Shown here: positions 10,667 to 22,856 of the stretch, piece by piece
Position numbering within the stretch: position 1 is the first letter of the stretch
Layout of the letters: each line of letters begins with the position of its first letter
Assembly: GCA_016213895.1 (NCBI GenBank)
Contig: JACQZJ010000137.1
Coordinates: 1-44,096, forward strand
DNA: 44,096 nucleotides
Direction: 5' to 3'
Source: Planctomycetota bacterium
GTDB taxonomy: Bacteria; Planctomycetota; B15-G4; JADJEK01
The notes under the pieces: generated by a model
What the model was told of the DNA's origin: nothing
Seen by the model: the letters and a program-made list of their open reading frames with translations, nothing else
Databases searched by the model: none
Program-made: the position numbers and the translations under genes

Positions 10667-12403
10667 ATGTTCTCGCCCTCGAAGCGCCGTGCGACCGGCA
10701 ACCGTTCGCCGCGGCGCGGTAGCAGGCGCATGCAGGGCGAACGACTCCTCGAAGGCGTGCGGATCCTCGCGCTGGCCTCGATCGGCCTGGGCGTCGGCCT
10801 GCACTACGCGCGCATGGGCTACATGCCGCTCGACCACTCGGTCTGCTTCGACGGCGGCTGGCGCGTTCTGTGCGGCCAGGTGCCGTTCCGCGACTACGTC
10901 GCGCCCAGCGGCTTGACCGTGCACGCGCTCCAGGCCGTGTTCTTCGCCCTGTTCGGCGTGACATGGTTCGCGTACTGCCTGCACGCGGCGGTCTTCAACG
11001 CGCTCGCCGTGCTCGGGGTCGACCGCCTGCTCGTGCTGCTTGGGCTCGAGCGCGCGTGGTCCAGCGTCTTCGCCCTGTGCACCGCGTTCGTGTTCTTCCC
11101 GCCGGTCGGCGTGCCGATGATGGACAGCCACGCCTTCTTCTTCTCGCTTGCCGCGCTGCTGGCGGCGCTTGCGGCCGCTCGCGCCGCGAGCGCGCGCACG
11201 CTGCGCTGGAGCGCGTACGCGGTCGGCCCGCTGCTCGCCCTGGCGTTCCTGTCCAAGCAGATCCCGTCGGTGTTCTTCCTGCCGGCCACGCTGGCGCTCG
11301 CTCTGTGGTCGCTCGACCGGCGTCGCACGACGTTCGTGCGCGTGCTCGCCGGCTTGGCGGCGACGGCTGCCGTCTGCGCGCTCGCCCTGGCCGCGCTGGG
11401 GGTCGACTGGGAGCTGGTCGACACCTACTGGCGGCGGCTGCCAAGCGCGGAGGGCTCGCGGCGCCTGGCCCTCTTCTCGTCGCCGCAGAGCCTGGTCCAC
11501 CGCTTCGTCGAGACGTGGCGCGATCTCGGGTTGCTGTCTCCGGCCGCGGCCTTCGGCGCCGGCCTCGCCGGACTCCTGCTGCCTCTGCTGCCCGCGCGGT
11601 TCCGCCGCGGCGCCGCGCTCAGCAGGACCTGGCCGTGCTGCGCCCTGGCCGTGTTCCTGACGCTCGCCGCGCTCTTCTTCGTGACCTGGACCTTCAACCA
11701 GGAGGAGATCGGCGTGCCGCTCGTGTTCGCCGCCTCGGGCTGCGTCGCGGCCGCCAGCCTGCACCTCAGCGCGTCGGCGCGCGAGCACGGCAAGCCGCGC
11801 CTTGCCGGGGCGCTCTGGCTCGCGCTTCCGCTGCTCGCCGCGGCTGCCGTGCTGGACGCCTGGGCCTTCGCGCGCGAGGTCGACGCGACCCGCCGGGCCA
11901 ACGATCTCGTGTTCGACGCGCGGGCCGCCGGCGAGGCGTCGCGCGAGCTGCCCGAGGGTCTCGCCTACCTGCGCTGGTGCGTGCCCAAGCTCGTCCGGTA
12001 CTCCCCCGGCGACCTCTGCGCGCTGGTCGAGTACCTGCGCGCGCGCGCAGGCGGCGTGTTCCTGCTCGGCGACACGTCCATCGTCTACGGCCTGAGCGGC
12101 AAGGAGTCCGTCGCGCCGTCCTTGTGGTTCCACCCGGGCCTGACGGCGCCGCGGCCATACGACCGCGGATTCGAACGCTACCAGGCGCTGCTCCTGCGGC
12201 GCTTCCGTGAGCTCGACGTGCAGACCGTGGTCGTGGAAGGCGAACGCACCTGGGTCGGCTACCGCGCCAATCCGGGCAAGAAGCCGCCCGAGTTCGCGTA
12301 CTTCACGCTCGCCACCTGGCCCAAGCTGGCGCGGCTGGTCGAGGAGCGCCGGCGCGCCGAGCGCTCATTCGGCCCGTTTCGCGCCATCGAGCTCGGTCCC
12401 TGA
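10667..12403 (+). CDS. GT-C fold membrane glycosyltransferase-like protein
   Basis: A 578-residue integral membrane protein. After a basic N-terminus come about ten hydrophobic segments between residues 27 and 405, then a soluble C-terminal domain of some 160 residues. The first extracytoplasmic loop contains GGWRVLCGQVPFRDYVAPSG. This is the pattern of GT39/GT83-like polyprenyl-phosphate-sugar transferases, where an Asp in this loop is catalytic. Other family-like stretches are MDSHAFFFSLAALLAAL and FLSKQIPSVFFLPATLAL. It should transfer a sugar from a lipid carrier to a lipid, glycan or protein outside the membrane; the acceptor is unknown. ATG10667 lacks a ribosome binding site, and ATG10730 (residue 22) is a plausible alternative start. 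It converges on the PNGase F-like gene with a 14-bp gap. Confidence 0.75.
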   Translation: MFSPSKRRATGNRSPRRGSRRMQGERLLEGVRILALASIGLGVGLHYARMGYMPLDHSVCFDGGWRVLCGQVPFRDYVAPSGLTVHALQAVFFALFGVTWFAYCLHAAVFNALAVLGVDRLLVLLGLERAWSSVFALCTAFVFFPPVGVPMMDSHAFFFSLAALLAALAAARAASARTLRWSAYAVGPLLALAFLSKQIPSVFFLPATLALALWSLDRRRTTFVRVLAGLAATAAVCALALAALGVDWELVDTYWRRLPSAEGSRRLALFSSPQSLVHRFVETWRDLGLLSPAAAFGAGLAGLLLPLLPARFRRGAALSRTWPCCALAVFLTLAALFFVTWTFNQEEIGVPLVFAASGCVAAASLHLSASAREHGKPRLAGALWLALPLLAAAAVLDAWAFAREVDATRRANDLVFDARAAGEASRELPEGLAYLRWCVPKLVRYSPGDLCALVEYLRARAGGVFLLGDTSIVYGLSGKESVAPSLWFHPGLTAPRPYDRGFERYQALLLRRFRELDVQTVVVEGERTWVGYRANPGKKPPEFAYFTLATWPKLARLVEERRRAERSFGPFRAIELGP

Positions 12404-12417
12404 GGCGCACGTTCCGA

Positions 12418-14031
12418 TCAGGGCCGGCGGTAGAGGATGAGCTGGGACTCCGTGGTGTGCGTCGGCGCCCAGCTCTGGCCGCGCGCCTCGTTCACGTAGT
12501 CGTCGAGCGCGTAGCCGAGGTCCAGCCGCTTCGCGCCCAGCAGCAGGGCCGTGACGTCCACCTCCCAGGGCGCCACCACGTCGCCCGGCGCCCAGCCGGC
12601 GCGGTCGTACTTCCAGGTCCCGCCCTGCGGCCGGCAGGGATTCAGGTAGTTGTCGGTCTTCCACAGGACGTTTCGGAACGACTCGCCGTTCACGGTCAGG
12701 GTCCGGCCGATCTCCATGAACTCGGCCGCGTTCCGGGTGTTCGGGTGCATGCCGTGGCCGGTCACCACGATCCGCACCTTGGCCGCCGCGGTCTCCTTGT
12801 CGAGCTCCACGCTCCGCGGCGCGTAGAAGTCGGCGACCGGCTTCTCGGGGTTGCCGATCTCGGGGTTCCCGCACCAGAGGTTCACCACGCGGCAGGCGAG
12901 AAGATCGCACGGCCCGGGGTAGAAGTCGAACGCGACCGTGACCACCCAGCCCTCGCCGTAGGTGGTGCACACTTGCTCGATCCTGCGCCGGCCGGAAAGC
13001 AGCGGCCGGAAGTCGCTCACGTCCACCTGCCAGACGTGTCCGCGGTGATAAGGCGTGATGTAGCGCAGGATCTCGAAGCGCTCGCCCTCGTCGTCGTAGG
13101 CGTAGATCGCCGCGAAGCGGTCCCACGGGTCGAAGCGCGTCTCCGGCTGGTCGAGGCGCAGCGTGCACACGATCCGGCCGAAGCGCGCGTTCTCGGCCGG
13201 GAAGTCCACCTCGGCCGCGTTGAGCGCGTGGTCCTTGTCGTTCAGGACGCGCTCCAACGCCGGCACGCGGAGCGGCGGCTCCGCGGGCTCGACGGTCGCG
13301 CCGCAGGCGACGGCGAGGTCGTCGATGAGCACGTCGCCGGCGGTCTCGACGTTCCGCGCCCCGAAGGCTGGCCGGCCGGCGTAGGCCGTCATCCCCGGGA
13401 TGAAGCGCCGCTCGAACACCGCCTCGCCGTCGATGAAAACCGTGGCCTCGGCGCCGCCGGTGACGAAGGCGAGGTGGATGGCCACGGCGTGCGGCTGCTC
13501 GTCGCGGAAGTCGAGCGCGGTCGTCTTCTTGGCGATCTCCATGCCGTCCCAGTGGAGGGAGACCTCGTGCTGCGGCCGGTCATAGGCGTTTCCCGAGCCG
13601 CGGAACGGGTCGCGGTTCGGCGGATTCGAGGCGTCGAAGCCCACGCCGAACGAACCGGCGATGCTCGGCGCCTCCCAGGCCTCGACCTCGGGCGCGGGGC
13701 CCTCCGCGCCGAAGCGGCCGGCGTCGAGCCAGGCGAAGCCGGCCCCCTCGCCGCCGGTGTTCATGATCAGCGCGAAGGACGCGTCGACCGTGGCGGCGGG
13801 CAGGGCGGCGGGCGCCGGGAACGCGGCGCTGGCGGTCGATTTCCACCACGACTGCAGCAGGTAGAGCTTCCCGTCCAGCGCCTTCGGCCCGGCGTCACGT
13901 TCCGCCGCCTCGCCGCTCGCGGCCGCGGCAAAGGGAGGGGCCTGCTCTCCCTCGGCGAAGGTCCAGGCGAGGTCCTGCGCCGCGGCCGGAGCGGCGCACA
14001 GGGCGAAGGTCAGAGTGGCGATGCGGCGCAT
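12418..14031 (-). CDS. Secreted PNGase F-like peptide-N-glycosidase with extra N-terminal lectin-like domain
   Basis: A 537-residue protein with a clear Sec signal peptide (MRRIATLTFALCAAPAAAQ). Residues about 20-225 form a beta-rich domain reminiscent of L-type lectin/concanavalin-like sandwiches (FALIMNTGGEGAGFAWL, VSLHWDGMEIAKK, VFIDGEAVFERRF). Residues about 235-370 match the PNGase F N-terminal domain: DPWDRFAAIY, RYITPYHRGHVWQVDVSDF and LLSGRRRIE. Residues about 385-537 match its C-terminal domain: GHGMHPNTRNAAEFME, VNGESF and GGTWKYDRAGWAPGD. D304 and E437 line up with the catalytic Asp60 and Glu206 of Elizabethkingia PNGase F. The family cleaves the bond between Asn and N-glycans outside the cell. 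The start has a GGAGAG site just upstream. Confidence 0.85.
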   Translation of the reverse strand: MRRIATLTFALCAAPAAAQDLAWTFAEGEQAPPFAAAASGEAAERDAGPKALDGKLYLLQSWWKSTASAAFPAPAALPAATVDASFALIMNTGGEGAGFAWLDAGRFGAEGPAPEVEAWEAPSIAGSFGVGFDASNPPNRDPFRGSGNAYDRPQHEVSLHWDGMEIAKKTTALDFRDEQPHAVAIHLAFVTGGAEATVFIDGEAVFERRFIPGMTAYAGRPAFGARNVETAGDVLIDDLAVACGATVEPAEPPLRVPALERVLNDKDHALNAAEVDFPAENARFGRIVCTLRLDQPETRFDPWDRFAAIYAYDDEGERFEILRYITPYHRGHVWQVDVSDFRPLLSGRRRIEQVCTTYGEGWVVTVAFDFYPGPCDLLACRVVNLWCGNPEIGNPEKPVADFYAPRSVELDKETAAAKVRIVVTGHGMHPNTRNAAEFMEIGRTLTVNGESFRNVLWKTDNYLNPCRPQGGTWKYDRAGWAPGDVVAPWEVDVTALLLGAKRLDLGYALDDYVNEARGQSWAPTHTTESQLILYRRP

Positions 14032-14168: not shown

Positions 14169-15764
14169 ATGAACAAAGCATTCTGCAATCGCTGTCAGAA
14201 GCTCGTCCCTGCGCGGTCCATCGAGCAGGACGGGAAGGTCTTCCTGGAAAAGGACTGTCCGGACTGCGGCGCCACGCGCACCTACATCTCGTGCGACGCC
14301 GAGCGCTACCGCGGCAAGCGCGCGGTGGACATCGACTACGGCTACACCGGCTGCAGCACGCAGTGCCGCTCCTGCAGTCACCAGCGCCGGCCGCGCTTCA
14401 CCTTCGTCAACGTGACCAACCGCTGCAACGCCAACTGCCCGATCTGCTTCGACAACGTGCCCGGCCTCGGCTTCGAGTTCGAGCCGCCGCTGCAGTACTT
14501 CCGCGCGCTCTTCCGCCAGCTCGCCCAGTACGAGCCCAAGCCGACCGTCTGCCTGTTCGGCGGGGAGCCGACGGTGCGCGAGGACCTGTTCGAGATCATC
14601 AAGCTGGCGCGCAAGCACGAGCTGAAGCCCTGGGTCTTCACCAACGGCTTGCGGCTCGCCAACGAGGACTTCTGCAGGAAGATCGTGGAGAGCCGCGCGC
14701 GCGTCATGTTCTCCTACGACGGCGGCGACCCGGGGACGTATGAGGTGCTGCGCGGCAACGCCAAGGCCGGCGAGCTGAAGGAGCGGGCGATCGAGAACCT
14801 GCGCCGCATGAAGAACGGGCGCGGCGGCAAGGCGACCATGGTGTCGGTCTTCTCCAAGGGGCTGAACGACGGCCGCATGCGCGAGCTGCTCGACTACCTG
14901 CACGAGCGTCGCGACCTGTTCGGCACCATCTACCTCATGCCCCTCTGCCACACCTGGAATCCCGAGGAGTGGGAGTTCAACCCGGAGCGCATCACCACCG
15001 AGGATGTCGAGGCGCTCGTGGACGGGGCCTTCCCCGAGCACAAGGTCGAGTTCCTGCCGCTCGGCTTCGTGGACCAGTTCCAGACGGTGATGCGCTACCT
15101 CGGCCGGGATCCGCTGCCCTACGGCGCCCATCCGAATTGTGAGAGCGTCTACGGCCTGATCTCGGACGGCGAGAAGTGGCTGCCGCTGTCGCACTTCCTC
15201 CGGGGGTCGCCGCTCGACCTGGCGCACGCACTCTTGAAGATGGAGAAACGCATCTCCGAGCGGGAGAAGCGCTGGGAGACGAGCCTCGCCGGGAAGCTGC
15301 TCGCCGCGCTGCGGCTCAAGAACTTCGCGCTCCGGCTGCTGGGAGTGCCGCCCATCGTGTTCCTGCTGCTGCGCCACGTGCGCGTGAGCCGCGCGCTCAA
15401 GGGCCGAGGGCTGGGCAAGCTCGGCCACGCCGCTGCCCTGCTCTGGAACGTGGCTTCGGGGCGCCGCTCGCGGCAAGTGCTCGAGCGCCACACCAACGCC
15501 CAGGGCACGCTCAAGCTCATCGTCCTGCCGCTCGAGGACAAGCACGTGCTCGAGACCGACCGGCTGGAGCGCTGCCCGACCTACCAGGCGTACCTCGAGC
15601 CGCGGACGCAGCAGCTCAACCTGATGCCGCTCTGCGTGTGGAAGCTGCACAACAAGCAGATCCTGCGCGACATCGCCGATCACTACCAGGAGGGGGCCGT
15701 CTCCGCCGAGGATGCGGGCGCCGGCTGCCCGCCTTCCTGCGGCGCGTGCGGCGGCGCGTGCTGA
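14169..15764 (+). CDS. Multi-cluster radical SAM enzyme, Tes/MJ0619-like (membrane-spanning lipid synthase candidate)
   Basis: A 531-residue protein. The radical SAM motif is NRCNANCPIC, with C86, C90 and C93, followed by a LFGGEPTVREDL segment after the first strand. Upstream lie a zinc- or rubredoxin-like four-Cys site (C6, C9, C30, C33) and a GCSTQCRSC cluster (C62, C66, C69). The C-terminus is CPPSCGACGGAC (C520, C524, C527, C531). This order, Cys-rich knuckle, extra cluster immediately before the SAM motif, then a long C-terminal region, is the layout of archaeal tetraether lipid synthase (Tes/MJ0619) and bacterial relatives that couple lipid tails. Membrane-peripheral hydrophobic stretches appear around 395-410 (LLGVPPIVFLLLRHV). 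The ATG at 14169 has no clear ribosome binding site. The substrate is inferred; radical SAM chemistry is certain. Confidence 0.8.
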   Translation: MNKAFCNRCQKLVPARSIEQDGKVFLEKDCPDCGATRTYISCDAERYRGKRAVDIDYGYTGCSTQCRSCSHQRRPRFTFVNVTNRCNANCPICFDNVPGLGFEFEPPLQYFRALFRQLAQYEPKPTVCLFGGEPTVREDLFEIIKLARKHELKPWVFTNGLRLANEDFCRKIVESRARVMFSYDGGDPGTYEVLRGNAKAGELKERAIENLRRMKNGRGGKATMVSVFSKGLNDGRMRELLDYLHERRDLFGTIYLMPLCHTWNPEEWEFNPERITTEDVEALVDGAFPEHKVEFLPLGFVDQFQTVMRYLGRDPLPYGAHPNCESVYGLISDGEKWLPLSHFLRGSPLDLAHALLKMEKRISEREKRWETSLAGKLLAALRLKNFALRLLGVPPIVFLLLRHVRVSRALKGRGLGKLGHAAALLWNVASGRRSRQVLERHTNAQGTLKLIVLPLEDKHVLETDRLERCPTYQAYLEPRTQQLNLMPLCVWKLHNKQILRDIADHYQEGAVSAEDAGAGCPPSCGACGGAC

Positions 15765-15786: not shown

Positions 15787-16671
15787 CTAAGGCGCCCGCG
15801 GTTCGGGCGCCGGGGGAAGGAAGAGGGCGAGCCGCTTGCGTGCATCCGGGTCGATGCTCTCCGGCGCCGTCATGATCGCGTCCTTCAGGGCGCTCCGGCA
15901 GGGGCAGGAGCGCGCGCCGAGGACGGCGGGCGCGGCCGCCGCGACCACGGCGCGCGCCGCGGCCACGGTCCGTTCGAGCGCCGCGAGGACCACGCCGACG
16001 CTGACCTCTTGCGCCGCTTCCCGCCAGCAGTCGTAGTCGGTGATGAGGGCGAGGTTGGCGTAGCACATCTCCGCCTCGCGCGCGAGTTTGGCCTCGGGCA
16101 GCGCCGTCATGCCGATGAGCTCGGCCCCGAAGGAGCGGTAGAGGCGCGCCTCGGCGCGCGTGGAGAACTGCGGCCCTTCCATGCACACGTAGGTGCCGGA
16201 GTCGTGCAGCGGCGCGCCCTGCGCGCGCGCAGCGGCCGCGAGCGCGCGCCGCAGATCCGGGCAGTAGGGCTCGGCGAAGGACACGTGCGCCACGCACCCC
16301 GGGCCGAAGAAGGAGGCGGCCCGCACTCCCTTGGTGCGGTCGATGATCTGGTCGGGAACGGCGATCTCGCCCGGACGGTACTCCTCCTTCAGGCTGCCCA
16401 CGGCGCTGGCGCCGATGACCCACTCGGCGCCGAGCGAGCAGAGCGCCCAGATGTTGGCCCGGTAGGGGACGTCCGACGGCGTGAACACGTGGCCGCGCCC
16501 GTGGCGCAAGAGGAAGAGCACGCGCGCCCCGCCGAGACGGCCCTCGAGGATCGGCGCCGAGGGCCGGCCGAAGGGCGTGTCGAGGTCGACGCTCCGGGCG
16601 CGCGCCAGCCCGGCGAGGTCCTGGAAGCCGCTGCCGCCGATCAGGGCGACGGCCGGGTCGTGCTGCTGCAT
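15787..16671 (-). CDS. mtnP: S-methyl-5'-thioadenosine phosphorylase
   Basis: A 294-residue cytoplasmic enzyme of the trimeric PNP/MTAP family, which splits methylthioadenosine to adenine and methylthioribose-1-phosphate for methionine salvage. Motifs include LIGGSGFQDL, RHGRGHVFTPSDVPYRANIW (phosphate and ribose contacts), GASAVGSLKEEYRPG, CMEGPQFSTRAEARLY, IGMTALPEAKLAREAEM and ALITDYDCW; the last favours MTAP over guanosine/inosine PNP. The ATG at 16671 is preceded by GAGGAGG. Longer upstream frames add only low-complexity codons. It is divergent from the aldolase gene. Its substrate arises from SAM use in polyamine synthesis, and radical SAM enzymes make a different product, so a link to the neighbouring radical SAM gene is only positional. 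Confidence 0.9.
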   Translation of the reverse strand: MQQHDPAVALIGGSGFQDLAGLARARSVDLDTPFGRPSAPILEGRLGGARVLFLLRHGRGHVFTPSDVPYRANIWALCSLGAEWVIGASAVGSLKEEYRPGEIAVPDQIIDRTKGVRAASFFGPGCVAHVSFAEPYCPDLRRALAAAARAQGAPLHDSGTYVCMEGPQFSTRAEARLYRSFGAELIGMTALPEAKLAREAEMCYANLALITDYDCWREAAQEVSVGVVLAALERTVAAARAVVAAAAPAVLGARSCPCRSALKDAIMTAPESIDPDARKRLALFLPPAPEPRAP

Positions 16672-20343: not shown

Positions 20344-21444
20344 ATGTCAGGACTGTCCCGGAGCCTGGTCAACGCCGTCCTCTGCCTTGGCGCGCTCGCG
20401 GCCACCTGCGCCGCGGTGGCGGCGCTTTCCCCCGAGCCCGATCCCCAATTCTACGGGGCGAAGTTCCGCGCCTTCGAGGAGACGAAGGACGAGTACGACA
20501 TCGTCTTCTTCGGCACGAGTCAGACCTTCTACACGCTCATCCCGGCGACCATCGACCGGCAGCTCGCGTCGGCCGGCCTGCCGCTCCGCTCCTACAACTT
20601 CGGCCTGTTCGGGGCCGAGGGCTTCGAGGTCGACCACATGATCGAGCGCGTCCTGGACCTCGAGCCCAGGCGCCTCAAGTGGATCGTGGCGGAATGGACG
20701 CAGTGGAGCGCCGTGCCGCGCCACGAGGCCAACCTCTACACGGACCGCTCCATCTTCTGGCACACGTTCGGGCGCACGGTGGAGGCGGTGCGCTCGGTGT
20801 GGCTGTCGCACGCGCGCTTAGGGCGCAAGCTCGCGGTCACCTGCGCCCACCTGAACCTCATGTGCCAGAGGTACTCGGGCTACGGCCAGGCGAAGCCGAT
20901 CCTGGAGGCGCTCTTCCCGGGCGGCATGCGCTACCGCCACGAACTCGTCGTGGAGGAGATGCGCGAGAAGCGGGGCAACATGTCGCTGCAGCCGAGCGCG
21001 GAGGTCACCTCCATCGAGGCGCCGGCCGGGGACCTCGATGCGTTTGCCGAGCTCAGGGAGGGGCTTGATGCCGAGAACGCGGCGCAGGTGGACCTCGGCG
21101 TGCACAACGCGCACGTGCAGAGGCGGCAGATCGAGCGCATGGCGGCGGCCGGCGTGGAGGTGCTGTACTTCACCTTGCCGGGGGCGGGACCGGCGCCCGA
21201 GGCGTACCGCCTGGCCGAGCGCGGCGATCTGCCCGCCTTCCTGGGGCTGAACAGCGCCGCCCGCTATCCCGGGATCTACCGCCCCGAGTTCTACTTCGAC
21301 CGGATCCACCTGAACGACCTGGGGGCTGCTCGGGCCAGCTACATCGTCGGGCAGGCGCTGGCGCGGTATTTGAAGGGAGAGGGGAGGGACGCGGAAAAGG
21401 CGCGGCCCGGCGCGCCGGCCGGCGCCGAGCGGGGCCCGCGATGA
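20344..21444 (+). CDS. SGNH-hydrolase-like partner of the MBOAT acyltransferase (AlgJ/DltD type)
   Basis: A 366-residue protein with one N-terminal hydrophobic segment (residues 7-29, VNAVLCLGALAATCAAVAAL) acting as signal anchor. The catalytic Ser block is FFGTSQTFYT with Ser59, and the C-terminal DxxH block is FDRIHLND with Asp319 and His322. These are the SGNH signatures of AlgX/AlgJ/PatB/DltD-like enzymes that receive acyl groups at the cell surface. The ATG of the MBOAT gene overlaps its TGA by 4 bases (ATGA at 21441-21444), so translation is coupled. Together they should acetylate an extracellular polysaccharide. The start ATG lacks a strong ribosome binding site. Overall family is clear; the exact substrate is unknown. 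Confidence 0.8.
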   Translation: MSGLSRSLVNAVLCLGALAATCAAVAALSPEPDPQFYGAKFRAFEETKDEYDIVFFGTSQTFYTLIPATIDRQLASAGLPLRSYNFGLFGAEGFEVDHMIERVLDLEPRRLKWIVAEWTQWSAVPRHEANLYTDRSIFWHTFGRTVEAVRSVWLSHARLGRKLAVTCAHLNLMCQRYSGYGQAKPILEALFPGGMRYRHELVVEEMREKRGNMSLQPSAEVTSIEAPAGDLDAFAELREGLDAENAAQVDLGVHNAHVQRRQIERMAAAGVEVLYFTLPGAGPAPEAYRLAERGDLPAFLGLNSAARYPGIYRPEFYFDRIHLNDLGAARASYIVGQALARYLKGEGRDAEKARPGAPAGAERGPR

Positions 21445-22856
21445 TCTTCACGGAGCTGCGCTTCCTGTTCTTCTTCGTCGTGGTGTTCGGCGTCTACTGG
21501 GCGCTGCGCCGGGAGGGCTGGCGCAAGAACTGGCTGCTCGCCACGAGCTACGTGTTCTATGCCGGGTGGGACTGGCGCTTCCTCTTCCTGATCGTGTCAT
21601 CGACGCTCGTCGACTACGTCGCCGGCTGGCAGCTCGCCGGCGGCCCACTGCAGAAGTCCCGTGGCAAACGCCACGTCTGGCTCCTGTTCAGCCTCATCGC
21701 CAACCTCGGCTTGCTCGGTTTCTTCAAGTACTACAACTTCTTCGTCGATTCCGGGGCGCGGCTGCTCCAGTGGCTGGGCCTGCCGGCCTCGGCGCCGGCC
21801 CTGCACATCATCCTGCCGGTCGGCATCAGCTTCTACACCTTCCAGACGCTCAGCTACACGCTGGACGTGTATCGCGGCAAGATCCCGGTGACGCGCAACC
21901 TGCGCGACTTCGCCCTGTTCGTGGCCTTCTTTCCCCAGCTCGTCGCCGGCCCGATCGTGCGCGCCGCCGACTTCCTGCCGCAGTTCAAGAGCGACCACAG
22001 GCTCGCGGACGTGCGCTTCCGCGCCTGTCTCAGCCTCTTCCTGTTCGGCTACATCAAGAAGGCTTGCGTCTCCGACCAGCTCGCGCCCCTGGTCGACCGC
22101 GTCTTTGCCGATCCGGCCGCGTTCGGCTGCTCCGCGCACTGGCTGGCGGTGTGCGTCTTCTGGGTGCAGCTCTAGTGCGACTTCTCCGGCTATTCGGACA
22201 TGGCCATCGCGACCGGCGGGCTGCTTGGCTACCGGCTGCCGGAGAACTTCCTGTTCCCGTACTTCGCCTTCAACCTGAGCGACTTCTGGCGGCGCTGGCA
22301 CGTCACCCTCTCGACCTGGGTCAGGGACTACCTCTTCTACTCCATCGGCGGCAGCCGCGGCAGCGAGCCGCGCGTCTACTTCAACATCCTCTTCTCTTTC
22401 ACCATCATTGGGCTGTGGCACGGCGCGGCCTGGACCTTCGTGGCGTTCGGCGCCCTGCACGGCCTGTTCCTGAGCGCCGAGCGTCTGTGGGCGCGGCTCT
22501 TGCCGGACGAGCGCTGCCTGCCGCGGCGCGCGGTGCACTGCCTGGGCCCGCTCATCATGAACCTCTGCCACATGGTGGCGATGGTCTTCTTCAGAAGCCG
22601 CGACTTTGCGTCCGTGGGGAGCTACCTGGGAACGATGTTCCTGGGCGGCGGCGGAGTGCGGCGGCTTGATCCGGCCTGGTGGTGGGCGGTGGCCGGCTTC
22701 ACGCTGGCGCACTTCGCCATGTACCGCGGGTTCCTGAGACAGAGGGCGCGCGCCCTGCCGGACTGGGCCTTCTCTATAGTCCTCGGCGTGAGCTTCGGCC
22801 TGGCGCTCGCCTTCTCGGCGCGCGAGGTCGCGCCCTTCGTCTACTTCCAGTTCTGA
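21441..22856 (+). pseudogene. MBOAT O-acyltransferase (AlgI-like) interrupted by an in-frame TAG
   Basis: A 471-codon gene for a polytopic O-acyltransferase that moves acyl groups across the membrane to an SGNH partner. Codons 1-244 encode MBOAT sequence (TELRFLFFFVVVFGVYWALR, GISFYTFQTLSYTLDVYRG, FFPQLVAGPIVRA). Codon 245 at 22173-22175 is TAG, exactly where the family has Tyr or similar in the motif Q-L-Y-C/F-D-F-S-G-Y-S-D-M. The same frame then continues CDFSGYSDMAIA, FWRRWHVTLSTWVRDYLFY and GLWHGAAW, with catalytic His327, to a normal stop at 22856. A single TAC-to-TAG change explains this. Other genes here end in TAG, which argues against a recoded stop. Either a recent nonsense mutation or a base-call error. 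Confidence 0.8.

Follow-up and report, generated by a model that had tools for sequence, protein, structure and literature searches.

A multi-copy planctomycete clade of radical SAM enzymes with the tetraether synthase fold, and a linked lipoprotein family with probable selenocysteine-containing members

Introduction

The 44,096-nucleotide stretch of planctomycete DNA analysed here (contig JACQZJ010000137.1 of assembly GCA_016213895.1; hereafter the window) contains, at positions 14169–15764 of the forward strand, an open reading frame that begins with ATG and encodes a radical SAM enzyme of 531 amino acids, called rSAM-C106 here. From the arrangement of its cysteines the first-pass annotation had proposed the layout of a tetraether or membrane-spanning lipid synthase. 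The locus therefore raises the question of whether the protein is such a synthase and, if it is not, on which substrate its radical chemistry would act. Tetraether synthase (Tes) is, to our knowledge, the only solved enzyme known to join two unactivated sp3 carbons via an iron–sulfur cluster, and it is reported to carry bound phospholipid. Homologues of Tes in bacteria, Planctomycetota included, have been proposed to make tetraether or membrane-spanning lipids (PMC8941075, PMC11868695), and bacterial Mss is reported to have the catalytic architecture of Tes (PMC13274423). Gms (GMGT synthase), a further radical SAM enzyme, links lipid chains through a C(sp3)–C(sp3) bond (PMC11186832); its likeness to the clade described below is drawn from this description.

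Overall structure and metal sites

rSAM-C106 is a radical SAM enzyme with four metal sites and the Tes fold, and belongs to a distinct, multi-copy clade of Planctomycetota. In a Pfam search it matches the radical SAM family (PF04055) at 57 bits, with a cut-off of 29.5, and the MJ0619-type N-terminal ribbon (PF23545) at 45 bits. The gene and the elements of the protein are as follows.

14169..15764, + strand: rSAM-C106, Tes superfamily, new bacterial clade (ORF; PF04055, PF23545; full-length 7TOL match)
14175..14291, + strand: N-terminal rubredoxin-like domain, C6-x2-C9-x20-C30-x2-C33 (PF23545 at aa 4–41; column check)
14352..14375, + strand: N-terminal auxiliary [4Fe-4S] motif, C62-x3-C66-x2-C69 (aligned with MJ0619 C73/C77/C80)
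14382..15068, + strand: radical SAM core, partial TIM barrel (PF04055 at aa 80–244; AlphaFold2 pLDDT mostly above 85)
14424..14447, + strand: radical SAM cluster, C86-x3-C90-x2-C93 (invariant in the clade)
14559..14570, + strand: SAM-binding GGEP motif, aa 131–134 (invariant in the clade)
14934..14960, + strand: clade-specific loop, about aa 256–264 (MPLCHTWN; hPLxxxW), where Tes has its Gln268/Ser271/Arg275 loop (column check)
15138..15140, + strand: Cys324, first predicted ligand of the C-terminal auxiliary cluster, in HPNC (kept throughout the clade and in Tes; lacking from TrsS-like proteins)
15210..15506, + strand: helical lipid-pocket domain, aa 348–446, net charge +14, with the hydrophobic helix FALRLLGVPPIVFLLLRHV (AlphaFold2 model, column check)
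15573..15575, + strand: Cys469, second predicted ligand of the C-terminal auxiliary cluster (aligned with MJ0619; column check)
15633..15635, + strand: Cys489, third predicted ligand of the C-terminal auxiliary cluster (aligned with MJ0619; column check)
15711..15761, + strand: Cys-rich tail, aa 515–531, disordered and non-conserved, with no defining site (AlphaFold2 model; orthologue and paralogue comparison)

The cysteines of the N-terminal metal sites (Cys6/9/30/33, Cys62/66/69 and Cys86/90/93) lie where the first-pass annotation had placed them, and all are invariant among the 17 clade members except Cys66, which one member lacks. The suggestion that the two N-terminal CxxC pairs hold a rubredoxin-like iron is supported by the PF23545 match and by the conservation of all four cysteines in every one of the 17. 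Position 71 is a histidine in many clade members, although not in all (column check). The CX3CX2C motif (C86/90/93) and the GGEP motif (G131–P134), both invariant, fit the protein to the radical SAM superfamily. The third cluster is bound, to judge from the alignment, by Cys324, Cys469 and Cys489, which do not vary within the clade and match the C-terminal cysteine trio of MJ0619, and not by the cysteines of the tail. The latter (Cys520/524/527/531) had been picked out as a further Cys-rich site and are indeed present, but a tail cluster was rejected: the pLDDT there is below 50 and the tail is poorly kept, with one of the cysteines missing from a 91%-identical orthologue and the whole tail missing from most paralogues.

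A phmmer search of the PDB with rSAM-C106 finds 7TOL (Tes) at 5e-42, and with a profile of the clade the match to MJ0619/7TOL now reaches the C-terminal domain (5e-61). The AlphaFold2 model of rSAM-C106, built with 21 homologues (pLDDT 83, pTM 0.83), has the four-domain fold of GDGT-MAS. In Foldseek it matches 7TOL and 7TOM over the full length, with TM-scores of 0.74/0.79 over 532 alignment columns for 7TOL and of 0.34 for the next structure, MoaA. MJ0619 (Tes/GDGT-MAS) is the best match in both sequence and structure and the sole full-length one. Because the profile and Foldseek matches to 7TOL are full length, the Tes-layout reading is right, and the model does have matching extra-cluster domains.

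Relation to Tes and TrsS

The layout and a position beside Tes in the tree hold for rSAM-C106, but identity with Tes does not. rSAM-C106 scores 154 bits in the NCBIfam Tes equivalog model (NF045702), for which the cut-off is 450. Bacterial Tes is within reach of this model, since two proteins above the cut-off, L049 and L063, occur at 577 bits in two of the 392 sampled genomes of the phylum. In a maximum-likelihood tree the 16 rows of the rSAM clade form one group (support 100/100, stem 1.8) that is sister to Tes at 99/96, and no firm placement within another radical SAM family is obtained. The exact position is provisional because the stem is long and Mss and Gms references are absent from the tree, for which TrsS-like proteins were chosen as the outgroup. 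The clade lies outside the Tes branch, and forcing it into one clade with Tes alone gives a p-AU of 0.03. On score, signatures and tree together, a true Tes was rejected.

rSAM-C106 and archaeal Tes/GDGT-MAS (MJ0619, 7TOL, NF045702) have in common the full-length fold, the rubredoxin-like site, the N-terminal auxiliary cluster, the CX3CX2C motif and the three cysteines of the C-terminal cluster. They differ in that rSAM-C106, at about 23% identity, falls below the curated cut-off and is multi-copy. In Tes the rubredoxin ligands are C9, C12, C33 and H36, and a loop over SAM carries Gln268/Ser271/Arg275 (PMC9433317). In the clade the fourth rubredoxin ligand is a cysteine in all 17 members, giving Cys4 rather than Cys3His with identical spacing, and the loop follows the pattern hPLxxxW; in rSAM-C106 (P0001) it has M257, C260 and N264, and W263 is invariant instead (column check). 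Met439 of Tes is replaced by Leu in nearly all clade members, in which the three [Fe4S4]C cysteines are kept. The M439A variant of Tes stays active (PMC9433317), and this replacement therefore decides neither for nor against Tes. Finally, the helical domain is longer and more basic, with a net charge of +7 to +21 in the clade compared with +3/+6 in Tes and −4/−5 in TrsS-like proteins (column check).

TrsS (NF045646) and the TrsS-like planctomycete proteins share the N-terminal half (rubredoxin-like site, N-terminal cluster and radical SAM core) and a link to selenium with the system described here. However, the sampled TrsS-like proteins have S/A, T/S and D at positions 324, 469 and 489, and so are without the third-cluster cysteines; moreover TrsS is a selenoprotein itself, whereas here selenocysteine (Sec) would sit in a separate lipoprotein. 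With these differences in the third-cluster cysteines and a score of 129 bits against a cut-off of 490, rSAM-C106 was not taken for a TrsS.

Another planctomycete branch of the Tes superfamily, observed at L015 (G032) and L017 (G014), scores about 313–324 bits and has an extended N-terminus. It nests beside bacterial Tes in the tree and could be Mss or a further type.

Paralogues and gene neighbourhoods

The genome to which the window belongs (5.5 Mb, 95.5% complete) has five full-length copies of the enzyme, and the sister species has the same five, one of them with an internal TAA. The clade is present in seven of the 392 sampled genomes, which are draft assemblies with genes called by a simple codon-usage script and gene absences judged by single family searches, and is scattered over five genera. 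Six of the seven carry 3–7 copies, some of those in G023 and G107 being cut by contig ends. The clade has two old sub-branches, A, to which the window copy belongs, and B; at G283:C61 and G151:C786 one copy of each stands beside the other in the same orientation. Just one near relative is named; it is 91% identical and belongs to a metagenome-assembled genome labelled Phycisphaera mikurensis (Planctomycetota), a label that may be loose. The TGA that ends the C149 paralogue was considered as a Sec codon and dismissed as an ordinary stop codon.

The window copy has no informative neighbours (a PNGase F-like gene, an MTAP/PNP-like phosphorylase, an aldolase and a sulfotransferase), and isolated copies such as this one take their context from relatives. 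The phosphorylase is a possible partner for 5'-deoxyadenosine salvage and is not counted in the system.

15787..16671, − strand: phosphorylase-superfamily gene (MTAP/PNP-like), convergent (PF01048 at 159 bits; order kept in L011)

The gene at 10730–12403, previously described as a nearby membrane glycosyltransferase, is without a Pfam match at E<=1e-3, and this description therefore finds no support here. The PNGase F-like gene (12418–14031, − strand; bacterial type, PF09113) is divergent from the radical SAM gene. Elsewhere in the window, 21441–22175 and 22200–22856 hold what appears to be an MBOAT-like acyltransferase split in two frames, possibly by a frameshift or an assembly error, with an AlgX/SGNH-like gene adjoining (names by eye).

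Among the relatives, a class-A copy at G283:C17 lies directly downstream of MlaE-F-D-C-A (phospholipid transport), the only locus with Mla linkage. SufS-like cysteine desulfurases, with the PLP lysine and the catalytic cysteine kept, lie 3' of four class-B copies or are fused to them. A TusA-domain gene lies upstream of, and overlaps, the class B+A pair in G151, an Rrf2 regulator stands beside another clade copy, and in the two species of the genus the gene directly downstream of the C149 copy encodes an aldehyde ferredoxin oxidoreductase (AOR). One-frame rSAM:SufS-like fusions of about 1000 aa were observed at L046/L035 (G023:C77) and L077 (G107:C64). At L033 (G000:C78) and L040 (G001:C39) a class-B copy, in G001 with an internal TAA, is the first gene of an operon that also encodes a multihaem cytochrome and a molybdopterin/Fe-S subunit that resemble alternative complex III.

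GGGP synthase gave no match in a single family search of the genome that contains the window. BcrAD/BadFG gave two matches there, both in short ORFs (306 and 357 aa) that were taken for other ATPase-family genes; because these are the only matches, a large Ger/PlsA protein is not inferred.

A linked lipoprotein family

Several copies of the enzyme are accompanied by a small lipoprotein of about 150 aa past the lipobox cysteine, with one near-invariant internal cysteine. The family has no Pfam model, its sole NCBIfam match, to NF047817, is short, C-terminal and below threshold, and a fold search with a lipoprotein model returns nothing below E 0.28. Its gene lies between the A and B copies at G283:C61, three genes upstream of the enzyme at C149, and immediately 5' of a B copy at G023:C77, G107:C95 and G151:C5; the order at G151:C5 is lipoprotein, rSAM, SufS, and in G023 and G107 the lipoprotein precedes an rSAM:SufS fusion. 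At L161 a lipoprotein–SufS pair occurs without an rSAM gene.

Matches above 100 bits are found in six of the seven clade genomes and in one of the 385 others (61% complete and from the family to which G151 belongs), a contrast that is partly biased in that the profile was built from clade genomes. The co-occurrence has a hypergeometric probability of 1e-11 by genome and 1e-7 by genus, in which phylogeny is not fully removed. With one genome per genus, adjacency of enzyme and lipoprotein within 5 kb was observed 6 times against 0.26 expected. Remote relatives in clade-free genomes are without the key cysteine. The lipoprotein has five copies in the genome of the window, as has the enzyme; in G066 the clade enzyme is present and the lipoprotein absent.

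Members of the family, some fused to a thioredoxin domain, were noted at L156 (G000:C109; PF00085), L163 (G283:C12), L165 (G151:C604) and L076 (G107:C95). Beside them are ArsR-, permease-, ArsC/ACR3- and redox-disulfide-like genes, most of them named by eye, which hint at metalloid or thiol stress.

Evidence for selenocysteine

One position of the lipoprotein alignment is Cys in 18 members, an in-frame TGA in six and Phe in one, and the six genes contain no other in-frame TGA. Two further members have a TGA, L141 and one in G165, the latter with a second TGA upstream.

TGA-bearing lipoproteins: L120 (G000:C78:34655-35206), L131 (G000:C198:6373-6897), L121, L128, L140, L141, L122 and L200

About 20 nt past the TGA, L120, L121, L128, L131 and L140 have stems of 8–9 bp capped by GGC or GUC, and L122 has a related stem; in the same fold check no matching perfect stem was seen in the Cys homologues. 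An apical G, a spacing of 16–37 nt and an MFE of at most −7.5 characterize bSECIS elements (PMC13188914), and the hairpins 3' of the lipoprotein TGA agree with this model. Folding z-scores for the 57-nt stretches past the TGA are modest (+0.7 to −2.3), and it is therefore the shape of stem and loop, together with the alignment, that carries the selenoprotein case. The codons after the TGA, fewer than 40 in each of two orthologue pairs, indicate purifying selection, more clearly in one pair (dN 0.02, dS 0.33) than in the other (dN 0.06, dS 0.13). G000, G001 and G151 all have tRNA-Sec, which is above the Rfam cut-off and is also recognized by ARAGORN, as well as a SelB that exceeds its cut-off. 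No tRNA-Sec was found in G023, where ARAGORN reads the best match as tRNA-Ser and the lipoprotein genes carry Cys. The genome of the window apparently has two tRNA-Sec genes (G000:C97:39338-39428 and G000:C214:11416-11509) and two SelB genes (C97:40964-42868 and C82:9637-11520).

With known prokaryotic selenoprotein families the lipoproteins share the UGA at a conserved Cys, the SECIS-type hairpin, SelB and tRNA-Sec, and no lipoprotein family is named among the 119 entries of a 2026 inventory (PMC13188914). Our literature search found no selenoprotein lipoproteins of Planctomycetes. On these sequence grounds the lipoproteins are most likely an undescribed selenoprotein family. Neither this linked Cys/Sec lipoprotein nor the five-fold paralogy of the enzyme was foreseen by the first-pass annotation.

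Proposed reaction and alternatives

The reading we favour, tentatively and with somewhat less than even confidence, is that rSAM-C106 carries out Tes-like radical chemistry on envelope lipid chains, for which we infer both substrate and product. The basic, hydrophobic helical domain would bind the membrane surface, and the SAM cluster would generate a 5'-deoxyadenosyl radical that abstracts hydrogen from a hydrophobic chain at an unactivated carbon. A sulfide of the C-terminal [4Fe-4S] cluster (Cys324/469/489) could then trap the carbon radical, as in Tes, the mechanism of which passes through a carbon–sulfur bond to the cluster (PMC9433317), before onward coupling. The chain would most likely come from an envelope (phospho)lipid of the ester type, and the linked Cys/Sec lipoproteins may take part in the same pathway. 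The sulfur of the cluster would be maintained by the SufS-like and TusA partners, and separate paralogues may serve separate chains or partners. This reading is favoured because the Mla operon and the basic, hydrophobic pocket domain point the same way as the fold and the third-cluster ligands, and it is also supported by the sister position to Tes (99/96) and by the SufS-like and TusA partners. Against it are the lack of a lipid-gene neighbour at the window copy, the restriction of Mla linkage to one locus, the GGGP synthase and Ger/PlsA results, and the loss of the Gln/Ser/Arg loop and labile Met of Tes. In addition, 5–7 paralogues per genome and co-occurrence with a lipoprotein are odd for a lipid-coupling enzyme.

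The same co-occurrence, together with adjacency and copy numbers, makes modification of the linked lipoproteins the main rival, although a rather unlikely one. The enzymes would act on the lipoproteins before export, a radical joining or altering the internal Cys/Sec or the lipid anchor, with one paralogue per lipoprotein subtype and sulfur or selenium from the SufS-like enzyme. Strong matches in six of seven clade genomes against one of 385 others, the missing cysteine in remote homologues, the physical linkage (G283:C61, G151:C5, G023/G107), the five copies of each in one genome and the L161 pair all agree with this. It sits less well with a fold and pocket of the lipid-enzyme type, in which no RiPP-recognition domain was found, with G066, and with the window copy and most others, which do not adjoin a lipoprotein; the bias in the bit-score contrast also tells against it. 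Insertion of sulfur is known from LipA and BioB, in which cluster sulfur leaves with the carbon radical. If the radical trapped on the third cluster left with sulfur in this way, a thiol or thioether lipid would result and the SufS-like and TusA proteins would refill the cluster. The adjoining or fused desulfurases with intact catalytic residues, the TusA overlap, the Rrf2 regulator and the carbon–sulfur bond in Tes itself (PMC9433317) are consistent with such a product. It is nevertheless improbable, as SufS is confined to one sub-branch, no sulfur gene stands beside the window copy, and a desulfurase could merely build or repair clusters.

That rSAM-C106 is after all a true tetraether or membrane-spanning lipid synthase, with a brGDGT-like or isoprenoid GDGT product, would suit the Tes fold, the third-cluster ligands and the published proposals for bacterial homologues. 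The score of 154 bits against 450, in a phylum whose true Tes reach 577, and the GGGP synthase and Ger results make it quite improbable. Least credible, and very improbable indeed, is a soluble-cofactor enzyme, for example one for pterin methylation (the older HMPTM annotation) or metallocofactor maturation beside the AOR at C149. The Pfam name of PF23545 and the AOR that follows the C149 copy in both species point that way, but the structure paper does not corroborate a methylase role for MJ0619 (PMC9433317) and the AOR adjoins only one of the five paralogues.

Implications

Several surveys count bacterial Tes homologues as brGDGT candidates, and the rSAM clade should not be counted among them without tests. 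As a deep sister clade of Tes, in which the four metal sites are kept and the SAM loop and pocket domain are changed, it offers natural variants for studying the determinants of substrate and product. It is unlikely, yet worth stating, that this multi-paralogue, Tes-fold clade matures new outer-envelope lipoproteins at Cys/Sec, or attaches a lipid chain there, with dedicated cysteine desulfurases. If true, the tetraether-synthase scaffold would here be directed at proteins or lipoproteins, and the same system would include a new selenoprotein family. The linked lipoproteins are themselves apparently an undescribed selenoprotein family, which is directly testable.
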